Assembly: GCA_017411805.1 (NCBI GenBank) | Contig: JAFQPI010000046.1 | Location: forward strand, 1-43,389 | DNA length: 43,389 bases | Reading direction: 5' to 3' | Source: Clostridia bacterium | Lineage (GTDB): Bacteria > Bacillota > Clostridia > Oscillospirales > CAG-272 | Shown here: positions 6,766 to 43,296 of the stretch, one piece after another | How positions within the stretch are numbered: position 1 is the stretch's first letter | Layout: the number at the start of each line of letters is the position of its first letter | Notes under the pieces: generated by a model | What the model saw: only the letters and a program-made list of their open reading frames with translations | What the model was told of the DNA's origin: nothing | Databases searched by the model: none | Program-made: the position numbers and the translations under genes

Positions 6766-7325
6766 AAATAATATCCCTCCTTCTTCAGATAATCCTTGAG
6801 TTTGTTTCGTGTGCGTATCAGTATTTTGGTTGTGTTTGAGATGCTTGTGCCGAATTTGTCTGAAATGAATTCTTTCGTTTCGCAGAAAAAGTATCTTCTT
6901 ATGAAGATAGCTCGGTCACGCTCGGAGCAGGTTCGCAAAAAGCGGTCGATAGTATCTTGAAGCTGTGATATCGCAATATTTTCGGAAATGATATCGTCTT
7001 CCGAAAATAAGCAGTCTTCCAGCTCCTCAAAGGCAACTATGGGAGCATTTCTTTTTCCTCTCATGCGAGCCTTGAGCTTGTCAACCGATAGATTGTGTAC
7101 TGTTTTTGCCAAATAGGCAACAAAGTTTGCAGGTTTTGCGGGCGGAATGCTTCTCCAAATACGCAAATACGCATCATTTACGCATTCTTCGGCATCTTGC
7201 GGATTGTTAAGAATATTGTTGGCGAGATTAAAGCAATAATCAGCATATCTTTTTTGCGTTTCCTCCAGTGCACGCTCGTCACGGCTCCAAAAAAGCTTAA
7301 TTAAATCGTTTGTAGTCATATCCAT
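6762..7325 (-). CDS. ECF RNA polymerase sigma factor
   Basis: This 187-residue ECF sigma factor is a relative of the one at 785-1333. Region 2 contains NNPQDAEECVNDAYLRIWRS. Region 4 contains ETKEFISDKFGTSISNTTKI followed by LIRTRNKLKDYL. The start at 7325 is favoured over the ATG two codons later because AGAGGTGAT sits 4-7 nt before it. It is coupled to the LRR anti-sigma-like gene by an ATGA overlap. The gene looks more AT-rich than the carbohydrate genes downstream and lies between long direct repeats (3437-3648 and 7569-7777), so the pair may be an inserted cassette. A sigma-A-like promoter (7422-7450) and a possible ECF promoter (7390-7416) precede it. Confidence 0.9.
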   Translation of the reverse strand: MDMTTNDLIKLFWSRDERALEETQKRYADYCFNLANNILNNPQDAEECVNDAYLRIWRSIPPAKPANFVAYLAKTVHNLSVDKLKARMRGKRNAPIVAFEELEDCLFSEDDIISENIAISQLQDTIDRFLRTCSERDRAIFIRRYFFCETKEFISDKFGTSISNTTKILIRTRNKLKDYLKKEGYYL

Positions 7326-7389
7326 TGGATCACCTCTTTCTGTTTTCGGGTTTTGTTGCCCTCAACAATTATGACGACATTTTTCGTAA

Positions 7390-7416
7390 AACGGGACAAA
7401 AGAAAAACAATTTTCG
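7390..7416 (-). promoter_or_regulatory. Candidate ECF-type promoter of the second sigma operon
   Basis: On the minus strand CGAAAA (7416-7411), 17 nt of T-rich spacer and CGTT (7393-7390). It resembles the element at 716-741 in front of the other ECF gene. It is a weaker match than that one. Confidence 0.35.
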
Positions 7417-7421
7417 AATAA

Positions 7422-7450
7422 AATATATCATGTTTTCGTAAAAAAGTCAA
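7422..7450 (-). promoter_or_regulatory. Promoter of the second sigma operon
   Basis: On the minus strand TTGACT (7450-7445), 17 nt, TATATT (7427-7422). The leader is about 90 nt. In the rest of the 7326-7668 gap I see only the duplicated terminator/promoter block starting near 7569. Confidence 0.7.
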
Positions 7451-7568
7451 CATTGTGCCGGATTCAACTTATTGTTTTACTGATAAGTACGATGCTTATA
7501 TGTTATTGTTAATGCTTCACAGCTGACATCACAGTTTCTTCTGAAAAGGTCAAGGGATGCTTTTTTGT

Positions 7569-7777
7569 TTACCGCCCAGCCGAAAGTTTGGCTGTGAGGA
7601 ATTTTTTTATTGACAATTTCTGATTAATGTGATAAAATAATTATGATTATGTGTAATAAAATGAAAGTGTGCTCTCGATGCAAAGGGTTCTGACTCAAAT
7701 CAATATCGAAAACTATCCCGAATCGCTTCGCCCGTTGCTTCTCGGCGCGGATATCTACGACAGCCGATGCGCGAGCG
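7569..7777 (+). repeat. Direct repeat of 3437-3648
   Basis: From TTGACA onward (7610-7777 against 3480-3648) the two blocks are almost identical, differing at a handful of positions in the promoter region and none that I see in the coding part. The preceding hairpin terminators (7577-7607 and 3440-3475) are in the same place but have diverged. The two copies bracket the LRR/sigma pair. Confidence 0.85.
7610..7638 (+). promoter_or_regulatory. Promoter of the phosphotransferase gene
   Basis: TTGACA (7610-7615), 17 nt, TAAAAT (7633-7638). It is duplicated at 3480-3508. Confidence 0.8.
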
Positions 7778-8463
7778 GCGCGGAGGTGCTTTTCATCGAC
7801 CGCGGCAACGGCTATTTTCTCAAAAGCATGAAACGCGGTGAGCTTGAAGCAGAGGCGAAGATGACGAAATATTTCGGCAGTCTCGGGCTTGGCGCAAAGG
7901 TTTTGGCGTTTGAGCAGGGTGAGCGCGACTATATGCTGACAGAGCGCGTTCACGGTGAGGATTGCACGCATGCGCTCTATCTTTCCGATCCCGAGCGGCT
8001 TTGCGATCTCTATGCCGAGCTGCTTTACGATCTTCACCACCGTGATTACACGGGCTGCCCCGTGCAGAATCGTATAGAATCCTATACGGCGCTTGCCTTT
8101 GAAAACTACCGCACGGGCAATTACGATAAGGATTCCTTCCCCGATTCCTTCGGCTACGCGTCGGCAAATGAGGCTATGGCGGTGATAGAGAAGTATGGAT
8201 CGTCGCTTAAGAATGACACTCTGATCCACGGCGACTACTGCTTGCCGAACGTAATGCTCGATAATTGGAAGTTCTCCGCCTTCATCGACGTCGGAAACGG
8301 CGGTGTTGGCGACCGTCACATCGACCTTTTTTGGGGAGTCTGGACGCTTTGGTACAATCTTAAAACTAACCGATATGAGGATCGCTTCCTCGATGCGTAC
8401 GGCAGGGGCAATTTTGACCCCGATATGCTCCGCATCGTTGCGGCGTTTGAAGTATTCGGATAG
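7669..8463 (+). CDS. Aminoglycoside 3'-phosphotransferase-like kinase
   Basis: This 264-residue protein has the APH/choline-kinase fold signature. The Brenner motif is HGDYCLPNVMLD with catalytic Asp near residue 189 and Asn near 194. The metal-binding stretch is FIDVGNGGVGDRHIDLFW with Asp near 207. The HGDYCLPN and GVGDRHID wording resembles APH(3') enzymes, which transfer phosphate from ATP or GTP to aminoglycosides. Chromosomal members of this group often have unknown small-molecule substrates, so resistance should not be assumed. Length is normal. The start is uncertain: GTG at 7669 or ATG at 7678, and neither has a clear ribosome site. A 37-nt gap separates it from the solute-binding gene. 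Confidence 0.8.
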   Translation: MLSMQRVLTQINIENYPESLRPLLLGADIYDSRCASGAEVLFIDRGNGYFLKSMKRGELEAEAKMTKYFGSLGLGAKVLAFEQGERDYMLTERVHGEDCTHALYLSDPERLCDLYAELLYDLHHRDYTGCPVQNRIESYTALAFENYRTGNYDKDSFPDSFGYASANEAMAVIEKYGSSLKNDTLIHGDYCLPNVMLDNWKFSAFIDVGNGGVGDRHIDLFWGVWTLWYNLKTNRYEDRFLDAYGRGNFDPDMLRIVAAFEVFG

Positions 8464-8500
8464 AAAAAATAATTTATAATATGTTTTTGGAGGAAATGTT

Positions 8501-10000
8501 ATGAAAAACATCACTCGCGTCATCATTGCCATACTTATTCTTGCAATGATGCTGCCTGCGGCACTCTCGTGTGCGCAGACGGAAACTCCCGGTGAAACGA
8601 CCGCTCCTGCGGCAACCGAAGCTCCCGACGGTACCGAGGAGTCCACCGAAGCAGAGGACACTATCTTTGCATCCAGCAACATTCCCGATGATTTGAAGTT
8701 TGACGGAACTACAGTCAATATCCTTTATTGGGATGATGTACCCAACGTGGAATTCTTCGTCGAGGACCTTACGGGCGAAGCAGTCAACGACGCCATCTAC
8801 AGAAGAAACGCGAAGGTTCAGGAGCAGTTCAGCGTTAACCTTAACTATGTTGGCACATCCGGTAATAACCAGAATATGGGTTCGTTTGTAAATGCTTGCG
8901 TAAACAGCACACAGGCGGGGGCAGACGCTTACGATATGTTCTGCGGTTATTCTATGACCGGCGCTACCCTTATGACTCAGGGCGTTACCCAGGATCTTAC
9001 CAATTATGATATTATGGAATTTGACAAGCCCTGGTGGCCCAAGAGCCTTATTTCCAAGGCTACGGTCCGCGAAGGCATCTATTTCGCATCGGGCGATATT
9101 TCCACAAACTTCATTCATATGATGTATCTCGTTATGTTCAACAAAGAAATGCTGTTGGATATTCATAATATGAATGCCGAGGAACTTTATGATTCCGTGT
9201 ATAAAGGACAGTGGACGCTTGATAAGTTCATTGAACTGACAAACGGTACTTATCTTGAGCAGGACGGCGATAACCTTCTCAGTGAGGGTGACCGCTACGG
9301 CGTTGTTGTAACCAACGTACATTTCGACCCCTTCTATGCAGGCTCAGGACTTACCACCATCGAGGTCAACAGTGACGGCGATCTCGTACTTTCCGCAGAC
9401 CTCTTCTCGCAGAAGACCGTTGACCTTCTTGAAAAGCTCTGCGAGCTTCTTCACACCTCGGGCAACGCTTATATCAAGAAGAGTGAGCCTCTCTTTGCCG
9501 CCGGCCAGGCACTTTTCATTGTTGACCGTCCCTACATAATTACAAGAAGCCTTACCTCTACAAGCTTTAACTTCGGTATCCTTCCCATCCCGAAGTATGA
9601 CGCAGAGCAGGCAGAGCACCTTACCTGCCTTGGCTTCGGTTATACAATGTATATGGTCTCGACCGCAGCTCCGAACCCCGAGGCAGCGGCGGCAACCATC
9701 GAGCTTATGGCATACCAAAGCTATCTCAACGTGACCCCTGCGCTCTTTGAGGAATCTATGAAGCTTCGTTATGCTGACCAGAGTGACGATGCGTTTATGT
9801 TCGATATCGTTCGCGAGGGTGTTGACATTGACATTGCCAGACTCTTTACCACTCAGCTTGATAAGATGTCCTACAGCATCTTCCGCAATGCCGTAAACAC
9901 CAACGGTGCGGGAAGCTATATGTCGGCACAAAAGGGTCACGAAAGAGCCCTCAATAAGAAGATAACGGATATCAACACAACCTTGAAGAGTCTTCAGTAA
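8501..10000 (+). CDS. Extracellular solute-binding lipoprotein (sugar ABC type)
   Basis: This 499-residue protein starts with a lipoprotein signal peptide (MKNITRVIIAILILAMMLPA, lipobox ALSC with Cys near residue 24), then a Thr/Glu/Pro-rich linker and a type I solute-binding fold. It should capture an oligosaccharide or similar ligand outside the membrane. It is a clear paralogue of the protein at 22034-23518: both share VNILYW, EFFVE, YRRN and a W(W)P region. No permease or ATPase of this transporter class lies in the window, so it must use components coded elsewhere or act only as a sensor. GGAGG lies 8 nt before the ATG. A terminator follows at 10005-10050. Confidence 0.85.
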   Translation: MKNITRVIIAILILAMMLPAALSCAQTETPGETTAPAATEAPDGTEESTEAEDTIFASSNIPDDLKFDGTTVNILYWDDVPNVEFFVEDLTGEAVNDAIYRRNAKVQEQFSVNLNYVGTSGNNQNMGSFVNACVNSTQAGADAYDMFCGYSMTGATLMTQGVTQDLTNYDIMEFDKPWWPKSLISKATVREGIYFASGDISTNFIHMMYLVMFNKEMLLDIHNMNAEELYDSVYKGQWTLDKFIELTNGTYLEQDGDNLLSEGDRYGVVVTNVHFDPFYAGSGLTTIEVNSDGDLVLSADLFSQKTVDLLEKLCELLHTSGNAYIKKSEPLFAAGQALFIVDRPYIITRSLTSTSFNFGILPIPKYDAEQAEHLTCLGFGYTMYMVSTAAPNPEAAAATIELMAYQSYLNVTPALFEESMKLRYADQSDDAFMFDIVREGVDIDIARLFTTQLDKMSYSIFRNAVNTNGAGSYMSAQKGHERALNKKITDINTTLKSLQ

Positions 10001-12736: not shown

Positions 12737-12767
12737 ATTTTGCATTTTGCATTTAGCATTTTGCATT
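12737..12767. repeat. TGCATTT iteron cluster
   Basis: Four tandem units of the type GCATTTTGCATTTAGC. About 30 nt are the exact reverse complement of the left end of the element at 27206-27363. Confidence 0.8.
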
Positions 12768-25057: not shown

Positions 25058-27205
25058 ATGAAAAGAATGTTTATTGAAAAACTGAATTTACGTCTTCTTG
25101 CGCTTCTTCTTGCGCTTGTGATGCTTGCCTCCGCGTTTGTTGGATGCTCGGGCGGTGAAGAAGCTGAAACAAGCAGCGGCGTTACGTCCGATGCATCATC
25201 TGAATCACCCGTAACGACTTCGGGTATTCCCGAGGGCTATACACTTGAGCTGACGCTTGATTATTCCGTCGTTCGATCGGAAAATGCAAGCGAGAGCGCA
25301 AGAGGCGCGTCTATCGAGCTGAAAAACGAGCTTTCCGATCTCTTCGGCAAGGATTTCCCGATCACCGAGGACTGGAAAGCCCCCGCGGAGGGCGCGCTCG
25401 AGATACTTATCGGCTCAACCAACCGTCCCGAATCGCAGTCAGCGACCGAGACTCTCGGCGGTGAGCTGCGCTATTCGGTATCGATCTCGGGTAAGACTGT
25501 CGTGATCGCATCGCCGAGCGATGCTATTCTCCCTTATGCCGTTGATTATTTCGTCAATAATATAGTATATTTTGATGCCGAAAGCACTCGCGTATATCTT
25601 CCTTCGGAGCTGAATTACGTCAGCGACGTTTTCTCGACCCTTGCGATAGCGAGCGGAGGTAAGGCGCAGTACGGAATGGTATATTCTCAGCATGCAAACG
25701 CCTTGGTAAAGGCGGAGTACGTCAAGCTGCAGTCCGGAGTCAATTCGATCCTGGGCAACAAAACGCAGATGATAAAGAATGACGCGCTCTCAAAGGCGGG
25801 CAAGTACAGCTCCGAGACGCTTGAGATCCTTATCGGAAGCACGGGTCATCCCGAGAATCCCGAGGGACGAAAGCTTTTTGATTATGACGAATGCGGATTT
25901 TGCGTTGTCGGAAACAAGATAATCATCACGGGCAGAACTCTTCCCGCGACCTTCTATGCTACCGAGAGATTTCTTGAGCTGCTTCAGGGTTCGGTAAGTA
26001 CAGCCGATGACGGAACAAAGCAGATCCTTCTCCCATATGCCGAGCCGGTTATCTGGGAATATAAGGATTATTGCAATGGTATTCCCGAGGTCTCGCTGAC
26101 TCTGACGGAGGCGTATGATTGCGGAGACGACGTTGTCACCATGCTTTATGCGGACGGAAAGAAGAGCGATTACGACAGCTATATCTCATCCGCTGAGGCA
26201 GAGGGATACGTTACTGTCTCTTCGCGCACCGCGGGAACCGAGAGCTATGCGGTCCTCGAGTCGAGCAGCGCGAAGACGAGACTTTTCGTCGGACATACCT
26301 CGGACGGACTCAGACTTACCGCCGAGTCGCTCAATACAAGGACCTTCCCGAATGAGGTCGAGGCGGATCCGTACACGACAGATCTGACCATCACTCAGAC
26401 CGCGCTCAATTATTCCGCGCAGGGCGATAATACCAACGGAATGTCCTATGTACTTCAGCTGACCGACGGATCGTTCGTAATCTGGGACGGCGGATGGGCT
26501 ACCGACGCGGCAGATCTTTTCCTCTTCCTTAAGAAAATGGCTCCGCAGGGAAGCATGCCGCATATCAGAATGTGGATATTCACGCATCTTCACGGCGACC
26601 ATTCGAATTGCTATCTCGAATTTGCCGAGGAATATGCGGACGGAGTCAAGCTTGATTACGTCGGCGTCAATATTCCCGAGATCCACAGCGACAACGAGGG
26701 TGAGAGCATTTATTCGAGCGGTAAGCTTAAAAATGCGCTTGTGAAGTTTAAGACCGCACAGCTTGTCAAGCTCCATACCGGAATGCTCCTTAAGATGCCG
26801 GGGGCCGATATCGAAGTTCTCCTGACTCAAGAGGATCTCGGAGTCAATAATCTCTATTCGACCAAGAGAAACGACCAATCCGTTATCACAAGGATCCTTG
26901 CCAATACCGATAAGGTGATCCTTCCCGGAGATGCACAGATCGTTGCGGGCGATTACGTTGTTGCGCGCTATGGCGACTATCTGCAGAGCAATTACGTTCA
27001 GGTGGCTCACCACGGCTCGATAAATAACCCCACCTGCCTCGATTTCTATAAGTTTGTCAAGCCCACGTACGTGCTTTTCCCCGGCGCGCAGAAAAGATAC
27101 AATGAAAACAAATCCACGCCCGAGAATAAGTACCTCATCAATCTCGTCGGACAGAAAAACGTCTTCGTCGCCGATGGGGGAGATAAGACCATAACGCTGG
27201 ATTAA
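25058..27205 (+). CDS. Secreted lipoprotein with metallo-beta-lactamase domain
   Basis: This 715-residue lipoprotein has lipobox FVGC near residue 29. The first 430 residues form an unrecognised extracellular region containing two similar stretches, LEILIGSTNRPES (about 105) and LEILIGSTGHPEN (about 265). The C-terminal 250 residues form a metallo-beta-lactamase fold with THLHGDHSN (His510, His512, Asp514, His515), LPGDAQ and VAHHGS. The HHGS motif is of the ComEC/Rec2 type. It may hydrolyse an ester or phosphodiester outside the cell. The start has no clear ribosome site, so coupling or a later ATG at 25067 is possible. It ends exactly where an inverted-repeat element begins. Confidence 0.75.
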   Translation: MKRMFIEKLNLRLLALLLALVMLASAFVGCSGGEEAETSSGVTSDASSESPVTTSGIPEGYTLELTLDYSVVRSENASESARGASIELKNELSDLFGKDFPITEDWKAPAEGALEILIGSTNRPESQSATETLGGELRYSVSISGKTVVIASPSDAILPYAVDYFVNNIVYFDAESTRVYLPSELNYVSDVFSTLAIASGGKAQYGMVYSQHANALVKAEYVKLQSGVNSILGNKTQMIKNDALSKAGKYSSETLEILIGSTGHPENPEGRKLFDYDECGFCVVGNKIIITGRTLPATFYATERFLELLQGSVSTADDGTKQILLPYAEPVIWEYKDYCNGIPEVSLTLTEAYDCGDDVVTMLYADGKKSDYDSYISSAEAEGYVTVSSRTAGTESYAVLESSSAKTRLFVGHTSDGLRLTAESLNTRTFPNEVEADPYTTDLTITQTALNYSAQGDNTNGMSYVLQLTDGSFVIWDGGWATDAADLFLFLKKMAPQGSMPHIRMWIFTHLHGDHSNCYLEFAEEYADGVKLDYVGVNIPEIHSDNEGESIYSSGKLKNALVKFKTAQLVKLHTGMLLKMPGADIEVLLTQEDLGVNNLYSTKRNDQSVITRILANTDKVILPGDAQIVAGDYVVARYGDYLQSNYVQVAHHGSINNPTCLDFYKFVKPTYVLFPGAQKRYNENKSTPENKYLINLVGQKNVFVADGGDKTITLD

Positions 27206-27363
27206 ATGCAAAATGCTAAATGCAAAATGCAAAATGAACCGATAATTTAATTTTGAAGTTCTATATAAACAAAGGACTGAATCCAAATTCAGTCCTTTAA
27301 TATTTAGAAAGATAAATGATGTTTTCTGCCAATTTTGCATTTTGCATTTTGCGTTTTGCATTT
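27206..27363. mobile_element. MITE-like element with ATGCAAA iteron ends and an internal terminator
   Basis: The left end (27206-27236) is a run of ATGCAAA and CTAAATGC units, and the right end (27332-27363) is the same in inverted orientation with a few changes. Between them lie AT-rich sequence and a 12-bp terminator hairpin (27271-27298, AAAGGACTGAAT arms, T-run after). There is no coding capacity. A third copy of one end stands at 12737-12767. The left end follows the stop codon of the preceding gene directly. Confidence 0.6.
27271..27300 (+). terminator. Intrinsic terminator inside the inverted-repeat element
   Basis: A 12-bp perfect stem with 4-nt loop, preceded by an A-run and ending in CCTTTAA. 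It is likely to end the 20709-27205 operon. Confidence 0.75.
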
Positions 27364-28037: not shown

Positions 28038-29381
28038 ATGAAAATTTCCGATTCTATCAAATATATAGGTGTAAACGACCATGAAATTGACCTGTTTGAG
28101 GGTCAATACGACGTGCCGAACGGCATGGCGTACAATTCTTACGTGATAATCGATGAAAAGATCGCTGTTTTTGATACGGTTGACGCGCGTTTCGGCGAGG
28201 AATGGAAGGCAAATCTAAAGGCGATGCTTGATGGCAGAGAACCCGATTACCTGATCGTTCAGCATATGGAGCCCGACCACTCCTCGAACATAAATCTCTT
28301 TTGCGATGAGTTCCCGAAGGCTACCGTCGTCGCTTCCGAGAGAGCTTTTATTATGATGAAGCAGTTCTTCGGACGCGATTATGCGGATCGCAGGATCGTT
28401 ATCAAGGACGGCGATACTCTCGGACTCGGCAAGCATACTCTCAATTTTATCGGCGCGGCTATGATCCATTGGCCCGAGGTCATGATGACTTATGAATCGA
28501 GCGAGAAGGTGCTCTTTTCGGCTGACGGATTCGGCAAATTCGGCGCGCTTGACGTGGATGAGGACTGGGCTTGCGAGGCGAGAAGATATTATTTCGGCAT
28601 CGTCGGCAAGTACGGTGCGCAGGTACAAAAGCTTCTCTCTAAGGCATCGGGACTTGAGATCAAAACGATCTGCCCCCTCCACGGACCCGTTCTGAACGAG
28701 GATCTCGGTTATTATATAGACCTTTACAACACCTGGTCGAGCTACGGCGTTGAAAGTGAGGGCGTGGCGATCGCGTACACCAGCGTTTACGGAAACACGA
28801 AAAAGGCTGTTGAATTGCTCGCCGATGAGCTTCGCGCTCTCGGTTGTCCGAAGGTCGCGCTCAGCGATCTCGCGCGCGACGATATGTCCGAGGCTCTCGA
28901 GGACGCGTTCCGCTACGGCAAGCTCGTTTTGGCAACGACTACTTATTCGGGCGATATTTTTCCCTTTATGCACAATTTTATCCACGCGCTCGCCGAGCAC
29001 GGATACCAGAAGCGCACCGTGGGTATAATAGAAAACGGAAGCTGGGCGCCGACGGCGGCTAAAAAGATGAAGGCGATGCTTGCAGAGTGCCGTGACATCA
29101 CCTTCACCGATACTACCGTCACCATCCGCTCCGCTATGACCGACGCGAACAGAGAGGAGATAAAGAAGCTCGCACTCGAGCTCGCGGGCGAGTATAATAA
29201 AACCGAAAGTGAGAATAAAGGCGTGAAATACGTATGTGAGATATGCGGCTACGAATACGATGAAGCCGCAGGCGATCCCGACAACGGAATCCCCGCGGGA
29301 ACGAAATTCGAAGACCTCCCCGAAGACTGGTGCTGCCCGCTCTGCGGAGTTGGTAAGGAGAATTTTAAGAAGGAAGAATAA
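28038..29381 (+). CDS. Flavodiiron protein fused to rubredoxin
   Basis: This 447-residue cytoplasmic enzyme has three domains. The metallo-beta-lactamase-like diiron domain has HMEPDHSS (His76, Glu78, Asp80), [15 protein letters not shown] and CPLHGPV. A flavodoxin domain follows (about 252-390) with FMN-binding [12 protein letters not shown] and [14 protein letters not shown]-terminal rubredoxin (about 398-447) has CEICGY and CCPLCG. The family reduces O2 to water, or NO to N2O, with electrons from rubredoxin, and protects anaerobes. The fused rubredoxin makes it a two-step unit needing only an NADH reductase. It has its own promoter and a terminator (29387-29420). Start is set by GGAG 10 nt upstream. 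Confidence 0.95.
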
Positions 29382-29386
29382 AATGT

Positions 29387-29423
29387 AACGCCCCGACAAG
29401 AAAGTCGGGGCGTTGATTTTATT
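29387..29423 (+). terminator. Terminator of the flavodiiron gene
   Basis: An 11-bp perfect stem (AACGCCCCGAC / GTCGGGGCGTT, 6-nt loop), then TGATTTTATTT. It overlaps the end of the convergent gene at 29419. Confidence 0.88.
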
Positions 29424-30444
29424 TATCCGAATCGGTTTTCTTTAATGAAAATCCGTTCTTTCTGCTGCAGCCGGCACGTCCGCCGCCGGCACAAGCACAG
29501 GCACAGGCACAGGCGCATCCTCGGCCGCCTCCGCCGCCGCTTCGGCTTGAATTATGGATGTTGCGTGCGCTGACGTAGTGCGGGTTCGTTCTGCCGTAGA
29601 CGTGAACGCGGTGTCCGTATCCGACAAGGAATCCGCGTCCCCGGCAGTAGGAAACGTAGCTGTCGACTATGTAGACCTCAGCAACTATTAGCAGAATTAT
29701 CAGAATAACCGCCAAGGCTATGATGCCGCCCTTTGTCTCGTTCAGCTCATTGTAAGCTCCGCTGTCATCGAAGTGAGTGTGAGCCACGGTATCCGCGCCG
29801 CTGAAAGCATCTTCGGAGTAATCAACGCGCATCGTTCGGTATCCGCCGCAATCGAAGCTGCCTGACCAGACGTAATAGCCCTTTTTGCTGTCAGCTTCGT
29901 CCGCAGAGGTGCATCCGTCGGTCTGCTTCCATCTGAATTCGTAATTTTCAACGGGAATAGCATTGAACCATCCGGGAACAAAATCATAGTAATATCCCGC
30001 GCTCTTTCGGCAAAGCATGTCTCCCTGCGTTGTTTTGAAGGAGAATTCGATCGTCGTACCGCCGTAATAAAAGCCAACGAAATCAAGTCTCAGCGCGACG
30101 TAATCGCTGTCTGCTATTTTGGTATAGCTTTTGATATTATCGGAGAGAGAATCCTCGTCTACCGAAAAGTTGCGGTTGGGCATTCCGATCTCTACCCAGG
30201 AAAGCGGCTCGGTGGCATCGAGTGCCTGCCACGTGAAGGCGTATTCGATATCGAGCTTGCCGTCATCACGCGGAGTGACGGTTACGCTGTAGTATTTGAT
30301 GAGGTCCTGCGGCTGTGGGGTATAGAGGATCGCAAAGATGACGGCAACAACCTGTATGATCATGCAGAAGACGAGCGCGACCGTATTTCCCGTCGGGAAG
30401 GTGCGGTTCTTTTTTATCTTTTCGGGTGTATACTTTTTGCTCAT
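29419..30444 (-). CDS. Two-helix membrane protein with cytoplasmic (Cys-Ala)5 tail
   Basis: This 341-residue protein has a basic cytoplasmic N-terminus and a first helix (about 21-43). An external beta-rich domain follows (about 50-240), with a pattern like DUF2207-type exported domains. A second helix (about 242-268) and a C-terminal tail on the inside complete it. The tail holds a Ser/Gly-rich stretch, (Cys-Ala)5 at about 310-319, then GGGRAGCSRK. The ATG at 30444 is preferred because AAGGAGG precedes it; an earlier ATG lies inside the upstream gene. The start overlaps the stop of the radical SAM gene by ATGA, so both are made together. I infer that the tail may be modified by that enzyme. 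No known named family is assigned. Confidence 0.75.
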   Translation of the reverse strand: MSKKYTPEKIKKNRTFPTGNTVALVFCMIIQVVAVIFAILYTPQPQDLIKYYSVTVTPRDDGKLDIEYAFTWQALDATEPLSWVEIGMPNRNFSVDEDSLSDNIKSYTKIADSDYVALRLDFVGFYYGGTTIEFSFKTTQGDMLCRKSAGYYYDFVPGWFNAIPVENYEFRWKQTDGCTSADEADSKKGYYVWSGSFDCGGYRTMRVDYSEDAFSGADTVAHTHFDDSGAYNELNETKGGIIALAVILIILLIVAEVYIVDSYVSYCRGRGFLVGYGHRVHVYGRTNPHYVSARNIHNSSRSGGGGGRGCACACACACAGGGRAGCSRKNGFSLKKTDSDK

Positions 30445-31820
30445 TTTGCCGCCTCCTTTCTGCTTCTGAAGGGACAGGAAAGCGCTTCCGTCTCGGTCAT
30501 CTTGCGTAGCGAACGGCATTTTTCATGCTTCCAGATCTTCTTGAAATCATCTGTGAGGATATTGCCGAGATCAGCATCCGATCCAAGCCAGCTCTGGCAG
30601 GGAACTGCGGTGCCGTCGGGCGCGATCGCCATATTGGAAAGTGCCGCGCCGCACATAGGTACGTTCATGCCGAGAACCTCGAGCTTTTCTGCGGCGATGA
30701 GTCCGGGAGAGGTAAAGTCGATCTCCATATCGGCGCCGTCGCAGTATTCCTTGGCGTTTTTGATGATAGAGTAAAGCTCGTCCGAGGAAAGATCGTATTC
30801 CTCATGGTTGATACCCGCCATACCCGTGCAGATGAGACCGCTTGCGGTCACGAAGCTTACGCCGAGGGAGCGGACGAATTCGAGAGTTTTGGCGTAATCC
30901 GCGTTCTTTTTGCAGAGGGGAGTGTTGACGCTGACGTCAAGCCCTGCAGAGACGGCGTTTTTGATGCCGTTTATCGTGTCGGAGAAATGAGAGCAGCCGA
31001 CAAGGTCGTTGTGGATCGATTCATCGTGCGAATAGAGGGTGACCTGAACGCTGTCGAGCCCCGCTTCACGCAGGCTGTTCGCAAGCTCGGGGGTGAGCTT
31101 TACGCCGTTTGTGTTGAGACGGGTGACGAATCGCTTGGCGTATCCGACGAGCTCAGCGAGATCCTCGCGCATAGTCGGCTCGCCTCCCGTGAAGGTCAGC
31201 ATAGGTACTCGCGCGTCCCAAAGCTTGTCGATGACTTTTTTCCATTCATCCGTACCGAGCTCGCGTGACGCGCTCTTGCATTGACCCGCGGCGTAGCAGA
31301 AGCGGCATTTCTGATTGCATTGCCATCTGCCGCTTTCGTCGGTCATCGCGCTGACCATGAGATCAAAGCGGTGGGGCGCGGTCATTTTACTTGCATATGA
31401 GTGGAGCGAGAGCTTTTCGATCTCGATCTCGGGATCATCACGCCTTGCAACCGCAAAGAGCACGCGCATTATCTCGTAAATATCCTCCTCGATCGCCTCA
31501 CGCGTAACCGATGGATAGACCGAGCGCACGGATCTTACCGTGTTTTCTATGATCGTTTGTTCATCCTCGTCCGAGATCGGCTTACCGTCAAAGTGGTTGA
31601 CCTCCCTCATAAAGTTCGAGAGGACGATCGCCCAGGAGTAGCCGATCGGGAGCAGGAAATAGCCGTTGAGGATGACGACGTAGGTGCTGTTTCCGAACAG
31701 CGAGAATTTCGGCGGAACGAGATGTATCCGCACAACACCGGGACCTCCCGGGTTGAAGGTGCAGTGACTCACACCCGATTTGAACTCTTTATATTGAGCT
31801 AATTTGTTTTTGAATCCCAT
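30441..31820 (-). CDS. Radical SAM protein with SPASM-like C-terminus
   Basis: This 459-residue enzyme has the radical SAM motif CNQKCRFC (Cys168, Cys172, Cys175) that binds a 4Fe-4S cluster and SAM. TFTGGEPTMRED and NTNGVKL follow. The C-terminal Cys-rich region (MCGAALSNM, VPCQSWLGSD, LGNI, KCRSLR, LSCPF) looks like a SPASM domain for extra clusters, as in peptide-modifying enzymes. An unusual N-terminal extension of about 150 residues precedes the SAM core, with two hydrophobic stretches (VVILNGYFLLPIGYSWAIVL). It follows a DUF559 gene by 21 nt and overlaps the Cys-Ala membrane-protein gene. A role in modifying that protein is inferred. Confidence 0.85.
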   Translation of the reverse strand: MGFKNKLAQYKEFKSGVSHCTFNPGGPGVVRIHLVPPKFSLFGNSTYVVILNGYFLLPIGYSWAIVLSNFMREVNHFDGKPISDEDEQTIIENTVRSVRSVYPSVTREAIEEDIYEIMRVLFAVARRDDPEIEIEKLSLHSYASKMTAPHRFDLMVSAMTDESGRWQCNQKCRFCYAAGQCKSASRELGTDEWKKVIDKLWDARVPMLTFTGGEPTMREDLAELVGYAKRFVTRLNTNGVKLTPELANSLREAGLDSVQVTLYSHDESIHNDLVGCSHFSDTINGIKNAVSAGLDVSVNTPLCKKNADYAKTLEFVRSLGVSFVTASGLICTGMAGINHEEYDLSSDELYSIIKNAKEYCDGADMEIDFTSPGLIAAEKLEVLGMNVPMCGAALSNMAIAPDGTAVPCQSWLGSDADLGNILTDDFKKIWKHEKCRSLRKMTETEALSCPFRSRKEAAK

Positions 31821-31841: not shown

Positions 31842-32219
31842 TTATTCGTTTGTGTGGTTATCGGATACTGCCCCTGTTAACACATAATCTATATATCTGC
31901 ATACGGAAATAAAATCTTCGTCAATTTGACGATTCGAAAATCTGATAACTCTAAGATCGTATCCTTCAAGGATGCTTGTGCGATATTCATCTTTATTTCT
32001 GCCCTTGGATGAATGATGCTGTGAACCGTCTATCTCTATAACAAGCTTTGCCTTGTGACAATAAAAATCCGCTATAAAGTTATCTATGGCTTTTTGCCGC
32101 TGAAATCTGCATTTGTGCTTTGCCAAAAATCCATACCATAAGCGTTTTTCTTGAGGTGTAGCGTTTTTTCGCAAGTTTTTGGCAAGAACGATATTTTTTT
32201 TGTTGTAATCAAGTGACAT
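31842..32219 (-). CDS. DUF559 (Vsr-like) endonuclease-domain protein
   Basis: This 125-residue protein has the DUF559 layout. The N-terminal segment AKNLRKNATPQEKRLWYGFL leads to QKAIDNFIADFYCHKAKLVI, then EIDGSQH. The PD-(D/E)XK-type core is built by Asp of ADFY and the EID residues. The family is related to the very-short-patch repair endonuclease, but most members have no proven role. AAGGAGG gives a strong ribosome site for the ATG at 32219. It precedes the radical SAM gene by 21 nt on the same strand and may be co-transcribed. It is next to a cluster of inverted-repeat elements, so it may belong to mobile or defence-related DNA. Confidence 0.85.
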   Translation of the reverse strand: MSLDYNKKNIVLAKNLRKNATPQEKRLWYGFLAKHKCRFQRQKAIDNFIADFYCHKAKLVIEIDGSQHHSSKGRNKDEYRTSILEGYDLRVIRFSNRQIDEDFISVCRYIDYVLTGAVSDNHTNE

Positions 32220-42171: not shown

Positions 42172-43296
42172 ATGAAAAAGTATTTTGTAAGACCTCTTTG
42201 CCTTATTCTTATGCTTGCTATGCTCGTTCCTATGATGGGTATTATGGCAAGTGCCGCAGAGCTTACCAACCTTTATGACGCATCCAAGGCTGTTTGCGGT
42301 ACTCCCAACAGCTCAAAGAGAGACACCGATCCCAAGTATAACGAAAACTACTATTGCTCCGAGCCCATCTACGTTAAGGAAGGCGACGTTATTACCGCAG
42401 GTCCCGTATTTGTTAAGCAGGGCTATTACTTTACTGCTTATAAGGAAGACGGAAGCGTTCACACCAAGCAGATCAAGTATGCTAACTGCACCGAGATCGA
42501 AGTTGTTCAGGGCAACCTTTCTATCGTTAAGTGGACAGTTCCCGCAGGCGTTGATTCCATCAGAATGGCAACATCCCAGATCTTCCGCGACAGCACACTC
42601 ATCACAAAGAACCAGGAGTTCGGTAAGGCTGATTTCCTTGCATATATGGCAAAGAATAACATCGAGCTGCCCTTCCTCAACGGCGTGAGCGCAGATACCC
42701 TCACCAACATTCTCCCCACAGAGAATACCTTTGCAGGAGAGGTTAAAAAGGCCGGCGAAACTGCAAACACCACCCATATTACATCCGATTACATCCCCGT
42801 AAAAGACGGCGATATGATCTATTACGGTGCGAGCCTCATCCCCACTTCCGATAATGCCCATCAGCTTGTTATGTATGATGCTGATAAGAAGGCAACCACC
42901 AATGTAAACACTGATTATACCGTATTTATCGGTGCGATCGATGATACCTATGGTATCTACGCATACAGAGTTCGTCCCGGCTCGGCATACGTTCGCGTCG
43001 TTTCTGATGCTAAGCTTTACAACGAAGGCAAGATCCTTGTAACCTTCAACCAGCCCTTCACTGTTGAAGGCTACAACAACTACTTCAATCCTCCCGAGAC
43101 CACTGAGCCCGCTCCCGAGACCACTGAGCCTGCTCCCGAGACGACCGAACCCGCTCCCGAGACGACTGAGCCCGCTCCCGAGACCACAGAGCCCGTAACT
43201 CCTCCCACGACCGGTGACTCCGCTCTTGTATTCGCGGCTATCGCGATCATTTCTCTCGTCGGCGTTGCAGTTATTGCAAAGAGAAGAGAGAACTGA
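42172..43296 (+). CDS. Secreted surface protein with two-fold repeat and sortase-like signal
   Basis: This 374-residue protein has a signal peptide (about 1-29, ending ASAAE). Two related beta domains follow, at about 58-160 (PIYVKEGDVITAG ... VPAGVDSIRMA) and about 200-300 (YIPVKDGDMIYYG ... RPGSAYVRVV), each ending near LVT/LIT plus NQ-F. The stalk has four to five PETTEPA repeats. The anchor is PPTTGDSALVFAAIAIISLV with KRREN. TTGD replaces the usual LPXTG of sortase substrates. GGAG lies close before the ATG. The codons are biased in a way expected of a highly expressed gene (few AGA/ATA), judged by eye. Ligand unknown. Confidence 0.8.
   Translation: MKKYFVRPLCLILMLAMLVPMMGIMASAAELTNLYDASKAVCGTPNSSKRDTDPKYNENYYCSEPIYVKEGDVITAGPVFVKQGYYFTAYKEDGSVHTKQIKYANCTEIEVVQGNLSIVKWTVPAGVDSIRMATSQIFRDSTLITKNQEFGKADFLAYMAKNNIELPFLNGVSADTLTNILPTENTFAGEVKKAGETANTTHITSDYIPVKDGDMIYYGASLIPTSDNAHQLVMYDADKKATTNVNTDYTVFIGAIDDTYGIYAYRVRPGSAYVRVVSDAKLYNEGKILVTFNQPFTVEGYNNYFNPPETTEPAPETTEPAPETTEPAPETTEPAPETTEPVTPPTTGDSALVFAAIAIISLVGVAVIAKRREN
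43090..43195 (+). repeat. PETTEPA stalk repeats
   Basis: About five copies of a 21-bp unit encode PETTEPA. The copies differ only in a few third bases. Confidence 0.8.

Follow-up and report, generated by a model that had tools for sequence, protein, structure and literature searches.

Radical S-adenosylmethionine (SAM) maturases such as SkfB, the sporulation killing factor sactisynthase, and SuiB/CteB combine a recognition element (RRE) for ribosomally synthesized and post-translationally modified peptides (RiPPs), a radical SAM domain and a Twitch or SPASM region, in that order, and their substrates are short peptides. A low-complexity, Cys-containing repeat on a short peptide is the proposed radical SAM/SPASM target in the ACGX system. 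The nearest idea in print that we found to the gene pair described here concerns membrane proteins: according to PMC12452194, TIGR04222 proteins have a Gly/Ser-rich, Cys-containing disordered C-terminus, and some are proposed substrates of adjacent MNIO enzymes. Here we describe a locus in a window of 43,389 nt (the whole stretch of DNA that was analyzed, from contig JAFQPI010000046.1 of Clostridia bacterium, assembly GCA_017411805.1), in which a radical SAM enzyme gene is followed on the minus strand by the gene of a membrane protein with Cys-Ala pairs in its tail (Table 1). We propose, with a probability of roughly 0.68, that this is a two-gene modification cassette in which the enzyme acts on the (Cys-Ala)n-GGGRAGC tail that the co-translated membrane protein exposes to the cytoplasm. 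That the tail is the substrate of the enzyme is very probable.

The window enzyme shares the domain order of SkfB and SuiB/CteB, matches them structurally over most of its chain, and has a Cys-containing candidate substrate adjacent to it. The systems differ in that this candidate is not a short peptide but a protein with two transmembrane (TM) helices and a repeating Cys-Ala core. Proteins of its family span 309–476 aa (28 proteins), longer than the short precursors typical of RRE radical SAM maturases. The likeness to the TIGR04222/MNIO pairs lies in a membrane protein with a Cys-bearing disordered tail and an adjacent RiPP-type enzyme; the differences are the enzyme class (MNIO there, radical SAM here), the predicted side of the tail (periplasmic there, cytoplasmic here), and the looseness of the association, with 490 of 1372 genomes being without an MNIO (PMC12452194, Table 3) as against a near-strict pairing here. 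The TIGR04222 model did not match the window protein (E ≤ 1) or five homologues (E ≤ 0.1), and a family enzyme (L105) scored 62 bits against TIGR04340, the model of the ACGX radical SAM/SPASM enzymes, for which the cut-off is 400. Among the papers listed by our literature searches, none was recognized as describing a radical SAM/(Cys-Ala)n membrane-protein pair, a mention in radical SAM RiPP surveys being possible.

Comparison of genomes revealed that the two genes travel together. Of 59 genomes of the nearest relatives, 6 contained the enzyme and these 6 were also the ones with the membrane protein, and both genes were present in four of five loci on GTDB contigs (L007–L010). The fifth locus (L011), an archaeal radical SAM protein of 30% identity without a CACACA frame, was dropped from the family counts. 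Two larger samples were searched, a class sample of 391 genomes and a phylum sample of 398, with 15 in common and a union of 774 by our own count. Enzyme presence was defined by a profile at E ≤ 1e-60, with at most four candidates per genome scored in both samples, and tail presence in the class sample by a DNA pattern for (CA)4-Gly. The class sample yielded ten genomes with the tail pattern and ten with the enzyme, nine of them common to both. In the one with a tail and no enzyme at threshold (G415), a 131-aa enzyme end was observed at a contig start. In the one with an enzyme and no pattern match (G373, L107), the enzyme is intact and the membrane-protein gene is split around a transposase region, with DDE_Tnp_1 in one frame, and still reads CACACACACACAVGGRVGC. 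In G289 the enzyme and the membrane-protein body reach a contig end within the Gly stretch, and the repeats open another contig.

In the phylum sample the enzyme was present in 14 of the 398 genomes, and the 13 besides the source genome are distant (218–367 bits). All 13 distant enzymes have an adjacent open reading frame (ORF) that matches the membrane-protein profile, and the tail is visible in 12 of these loci; L100 has a run of N before the tail position, and the contig of L103 stops within the repeats. The pattern search missed two enzyme-bearing genomes, G668, where a contig ends amid the repeats, and G778, where there is a run of N. Searched in reverse, 17 of the 398 genomes contained the (CA)4 pattern, and 13 of these have tails by context (G000 and 12 others). 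The matches in G547, G589, G644 and G565, as well as extra matches in G816 and G620, are hexamer arrays that lack the Gly-GGGRAGC context at the places translated (L108, L110, L118 and L121, respectively, L119 and L132 for G816, and L123 for G620); further matches lie at G565 C34, G816 C92 and G620 C22. In G456 a tail without an enzyme at 1e-60 lies directly upstream of a 200-bit relative whose C-terminal Cys pattern is, by eye, that of a full SPASM. No tail with Gly context was found in an enzyme-free genome of either sample. Over the 774 genomes the union table (both, enzyme only, tail only, neither) is (24, 1, 0, 749), where G415 and G456 are placed under both, G778 under enzyme only, and G644 under neither. 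The check set by the original prediction was whether (Cys-Ala)n tails occur only next to the enzyme, a tail widespread without it being taken to speak against the idea; in both samples the tails kept to the enzyme, the exceptions being contig breaks and one split gene, and no such spread was observed.

Family members scored at least 200 bits and non-members at most 78 (20 genomes), the exception being an 82-bit fragment in G644 (L144/L151; 126 aa, 73% identical to L096). This fragment is a decayed family copy, and the surrounding 11 kb showed no membrane protein. When 32 family enzymes were placed in a tree with 8 others, two labels had to be changed, since L144, an outgroup chosen by score, falls inside the family; as the other outgroup branches are very long, we do not claim that the family is monophyletic. 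The idea of a mobile element was rejected: a scan of viral contigs gave no relative, and plasmids gave two partial radical SAM matches of ~30% identity.

The window protein ends GRGCACACACACAGGGRAGCS, which contains exactly the five Cys-Ala pairs and one further Cys that had first been counted in its Gly-rich tail, and the tail as a whole is SGGGGGRGCACACACACAGGGRAGCSRKN. Among 17 proteins CACACACAGGGR.GC is nearly invariant, even though identity to the window protein drops to 26%, and mean column identity is 0.99 for the 17 motif columns as against 0.47 for the 294 others. Per pair of these proteins, synonymous differences affect 8.4 of 15 codons, compared with 0.12 residue differences. So many synonymous codon differences beneath near-fixed residues indicate selection on the peptide and not on a DNA repeat, and a DNA microsatellite as the source of the tail is ruled out by this codon test. 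In the source genome the (CA)4 DNA pattern matches only at this tail, at two overlapping places. Uninterrupted (CA) repeats reach a maximum of 3 to 6 units, depending on the protein (28 proteins), and the outer repeats are variable (e.g., CVSC, CAHSSC). Tails differ in style, those of f154 and f216 being GC[AHY]CVSCACACVSCACACACAGG[GR]GAGC. In G295 (L035) two tandem tail proteins (6782–7708 and 7771–8706) stand before a single enzyme, and the sequence of the second, CACACAYACACAGGGRAGCS, has Tyr in place of a Cys and keeps the register.

Within the window, the ATGA overlap first noted between the two genes is present, formed by the enzyme stop and the membrane-protein start and preceded by an AGGAGG, a good ribosome-binding site. 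The open frame of the membrane protein covers 29419–30519 (−), and its true start is, as read from the sequence, almost surely the M at 30444, giving 341 aa.

The enzyme matches Pfam Radical_SAM (E 9e-22) and SPASM (E 9e-9). C390, C408 and C449, together with the intervening G403, are invariant in all 32 aligned enzymes and fit the motif CX9-15GX4C-gap-C, and three extra Cys, as in a full SPASM, occur in 13 or 14 of the 32. The earlier label of a SPASM-like enzyme agrees with the two Pfam matches, with one refinement: the window enzyme has the shortened Twitch form and no full SPASM. The model of the enzyme superposes across its N-domain, on SuiB over residues 18–459 and on SkfB over 30–454, and EpeE structures are also among its fold matches. 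The architecture is modeled as RRE, radical SAM and Twitch/SPASM, nearest to SuiB and SkfB; against TIGR04403, the NCBIfam equivalog model for SkfB, the window enzyme scored 67.8 bits with a cut-off of 300. Of the RiPP-like modification in the original prediction, the part concerning a peptide modification gains support from this maturase architecture with its RRE-like N-domain, and the formation of bonds is a step that we infer.

Modeling favors a cytoplasmic position for the tail. The charge rule and hydropathy place it there in 23 of 28 homologues, and the two TM helices agree with the AlphaFold model, so that the topology first proposed is backed, as a prediction. In model comparison, the beta-sandwich fold between the helices resembles the N-domains of ribophorin I/Ost1 and of M1 aminopeptidase. 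No NCBIfam family (E ≤ 1) and no Pfam entry above cut-off matched the window protein, and no NCBIfam family matched five of its homologues (E ≤ 0.1). The layout of an extracellular domain, TM and Gly-rich end is similar to that of DUF2207/TPM/LemA envelope proteins; Pfam DUF2207 (PF09972) matched neither the window protein nor L138 at E ≤ 1, nor L096, L105, L038, L034 or L094 at E ≤ 0.1. Seven relatives (L037, L038, L039, L040, L044, L045 and L046) have a zinc-ribbon-like CxxC...CxxC between TM2 and the tail that the window protein does not have. The tail proteins of L094 and L101 gave sub-cut-off Pfam matches to a YxzE-like putative bacteriocin around or after TM2 (E 0.008 and 0.002), which are probably a composition effect.

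We hypothesize that the enzyme would dock on the tail, or on the ~40-residue stretch between TM2 and the repeats, and that a 5'-deoxyadenosyl radical would be formed and would take a hydrogen from a backbone or side-chain carbon beside the Cys residues, with the Cys sulphur most likely then being joined to carbon in a thioether. Bonding of sulphur to carbon is our first guess because Cys is what is conserved, and we rate thioether chemistry at slightly better than even odds. The radical SAM maturase PapB takes Cys-Xn-Asp substrates in which n can be anything from 0 to 6 (PMC9413430), so short rings are chemically possible. The outcome would be a compact cross-linked Cys/Ala/Gly cap, which probably stays on the protein rather than being cut off. 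More tentatively, with the odds somewhat against it, this could be a phylum-wide, permanent Cys ladder on the cytoplasmic end, polycyclic through thioethers (or of alternating D/L residues), that serves as a structural, redox or metal-binding cap and not as a released natural product. A physiological role in envelope maintenance or sensing is a guess, based on the cassette sitting with TPM and LemA genes, which follow it, in one other lineage (L096).

Several observations weigh against the cassette as proposed. Pfam PqqD was unmatched in the eight enzymes scanned, and for this reason the RRE was assigned from the model and superposition. No NCBIfam equivalog reached its cut-off for the enzymes among the best 25 of each list, so the sequence does not reveal the reaction type. 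At TM2, 5 of the 28 homologues deviate from the charge rule. In G250 the contig ends before the tail of the membrane protein that follows the one enzyme found; the tail observed is that of a second membrane protein (58% identical; L058:3-413 and L037:4951-6210), itself cut at its start, so that this tail and the enzyme are seen on separate contigs. The two membrane proteins may form a tandem like that of G295, or the second may belong to a separate locus. The enzyme could also act elsewhere, with the tail binding metal by itself. Lastly, the Cys-Ala adjacency of the tail is unlike most known sactipeptides, which are hairpins with distant acceptors (PMC8326336).

PoyD is a radical SAM enzyme that epimerizes peptides in a 1,3 pattern, and EpeE has two [4Fe-4S] clusters (PMC8326336). 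Together with a core whose periodicity is strictly i, i+2 and the EpeE structures among the fold matches, these points would suit an enzyme that converts alternate residues of (Cys-Ala)n to D without any cross-link, leaving an alternating D/L segment with every Cys on the same face, where metal or a membrane could be bound; we regard this as unlikely. Equally unlikely is a precursor role for the membrane protein, which would then be unusually large and have its modified tail cut and released as a signal, metallophore or antimicrobial. General RiPP logic and a tail that is unstructured in the model would agree with release, as would repeats at the extreme C-terminus in f113 (GGSSCACACACACASSGGCT; here the membrane-protein gene precedes the enzyme gene) and f118. 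However, the tail is predicted to be cytoplasmic, a folded domain is predicted for the protein body, and no constant protease or exporter neighbor was seen (11 loci, judged by eye with genes unannotated). Moreover, in L094, L095 and L098 the repeats are internal, ahead of a Pfam TPM domain, because the tail frame continues via a hydrophobic stretch into that domain. A lipobox-like AAGC was noted by eye between repeats and TPM domain in these three.

CxC ladders generally act as metal ligands. A tail whose Cys-X-Cys units simply bind metal or Fe-S, with the enzyme modifying something else, would fit this and the zinc-ribbon-like segment of the seven relatives (Pfam E 0.005 for L038, below cut-off), but is more improbable still, given the near one-to-one gene pairing in both samples, the RRE-type maturase architecture, the fact that no further constant partner was recognized at the 11 loci, and the ends of DUF2207-type proteins away from the enzyme, which are Gly-rich without Cys in three of the four found. 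These proteins occurred in 3 of 12 enzyme-carrying genomes searched; L139, L141 and L142 have no (Cys-Ala)n or Cys in their Gly-rich ends, and the fourth frame, L140, ends early.

If modification of the tail by the enzyme is confirmed, the reach of RiPP-type radical chemistry would grow beyond small peptides to include full-size membrane proteins that remain folded and in position. An envelope-protein family without any NCBIfam or Pfam model name would become approachable for the first time, a repeat substrate for thioether engineering would be gained, and the regularity of the substrate would make the reaction easy to test.

Table 1. Features of the enzyme/membrane-protein locus, in window coordinates (aa, residues of the respective protein; pLDDT, predicted local distance difference test).
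Feature	Position	Strand	Basis
Radical SAM/Twitch (SPASM-like) enzyme, 459 aa, proposed tail maturase	30441..31820	(-)	
Putative N-terminal RRE-like domain, aa 30-125, three strands and three helices	31446..31733	(-)	model secondary structure and superposition
Radical SAM cluster motif C168-x3-C172-x2-C175	31296..31319	(-)	CX3CX2C invariant in 32/32 aligned family enzymes
Twitch auxiliary-cluster region C390-X12-G-X4-C408 ... C449	30474..30653	(-)	alignment of family enzymes
Shine-Dalgarno AGGAGG for membrane-protein gene	30452..30457	(-)	read from sequence
ATGA overlap, enzyme stop and membrane-protein start	30441..30444	(-)	
Membrane protein, two TM, 341 aa, proposed substrate	29419..30444	(-)	
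TM helix 1, aa 18-40	30325..30393	(-)	AlphaFold model and hydropathy/charge
Predicted extracellular beta-sandwich domain, aa 47-210	29815..30306	(-)	model and fold comparison
TM helix 2, aa 233-267	29644..29748	(-)	AlphaFold model and hydropathy/charge
Predicted cytoplasmic disordered Gly-rich tail, aa 271-341	29422..29634	(-)	pLDDT below 50; positive charge after TM2
Core motif CACACACACA-GGGRAGC, aa 310-326, proposed modification site	29467..29517	(-)	conservation and codon test

Directly upstream of the enzyme in the window is a DUF559 gene (31842–32219 (−), Pfam E 1e-26), which was not recognized beside the cassette at the 11 loci judged by eye. Convergent with the cassette, at 28038–29381 (+), is a gene for a flavodiiron-type protein with a C-terminal rubredoxin. 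Short 7-bp tandem arrays (ATTTTGC, AAATGCA) were observed at 12737–12767, 27204–27236 and 27332–27363, the latter two just past the ORF at 25058–27205. At 43091–43195 a 21-bp unit is repeated five times, and one of its frames reads PETTEPA by hand translation, possibly a linker.
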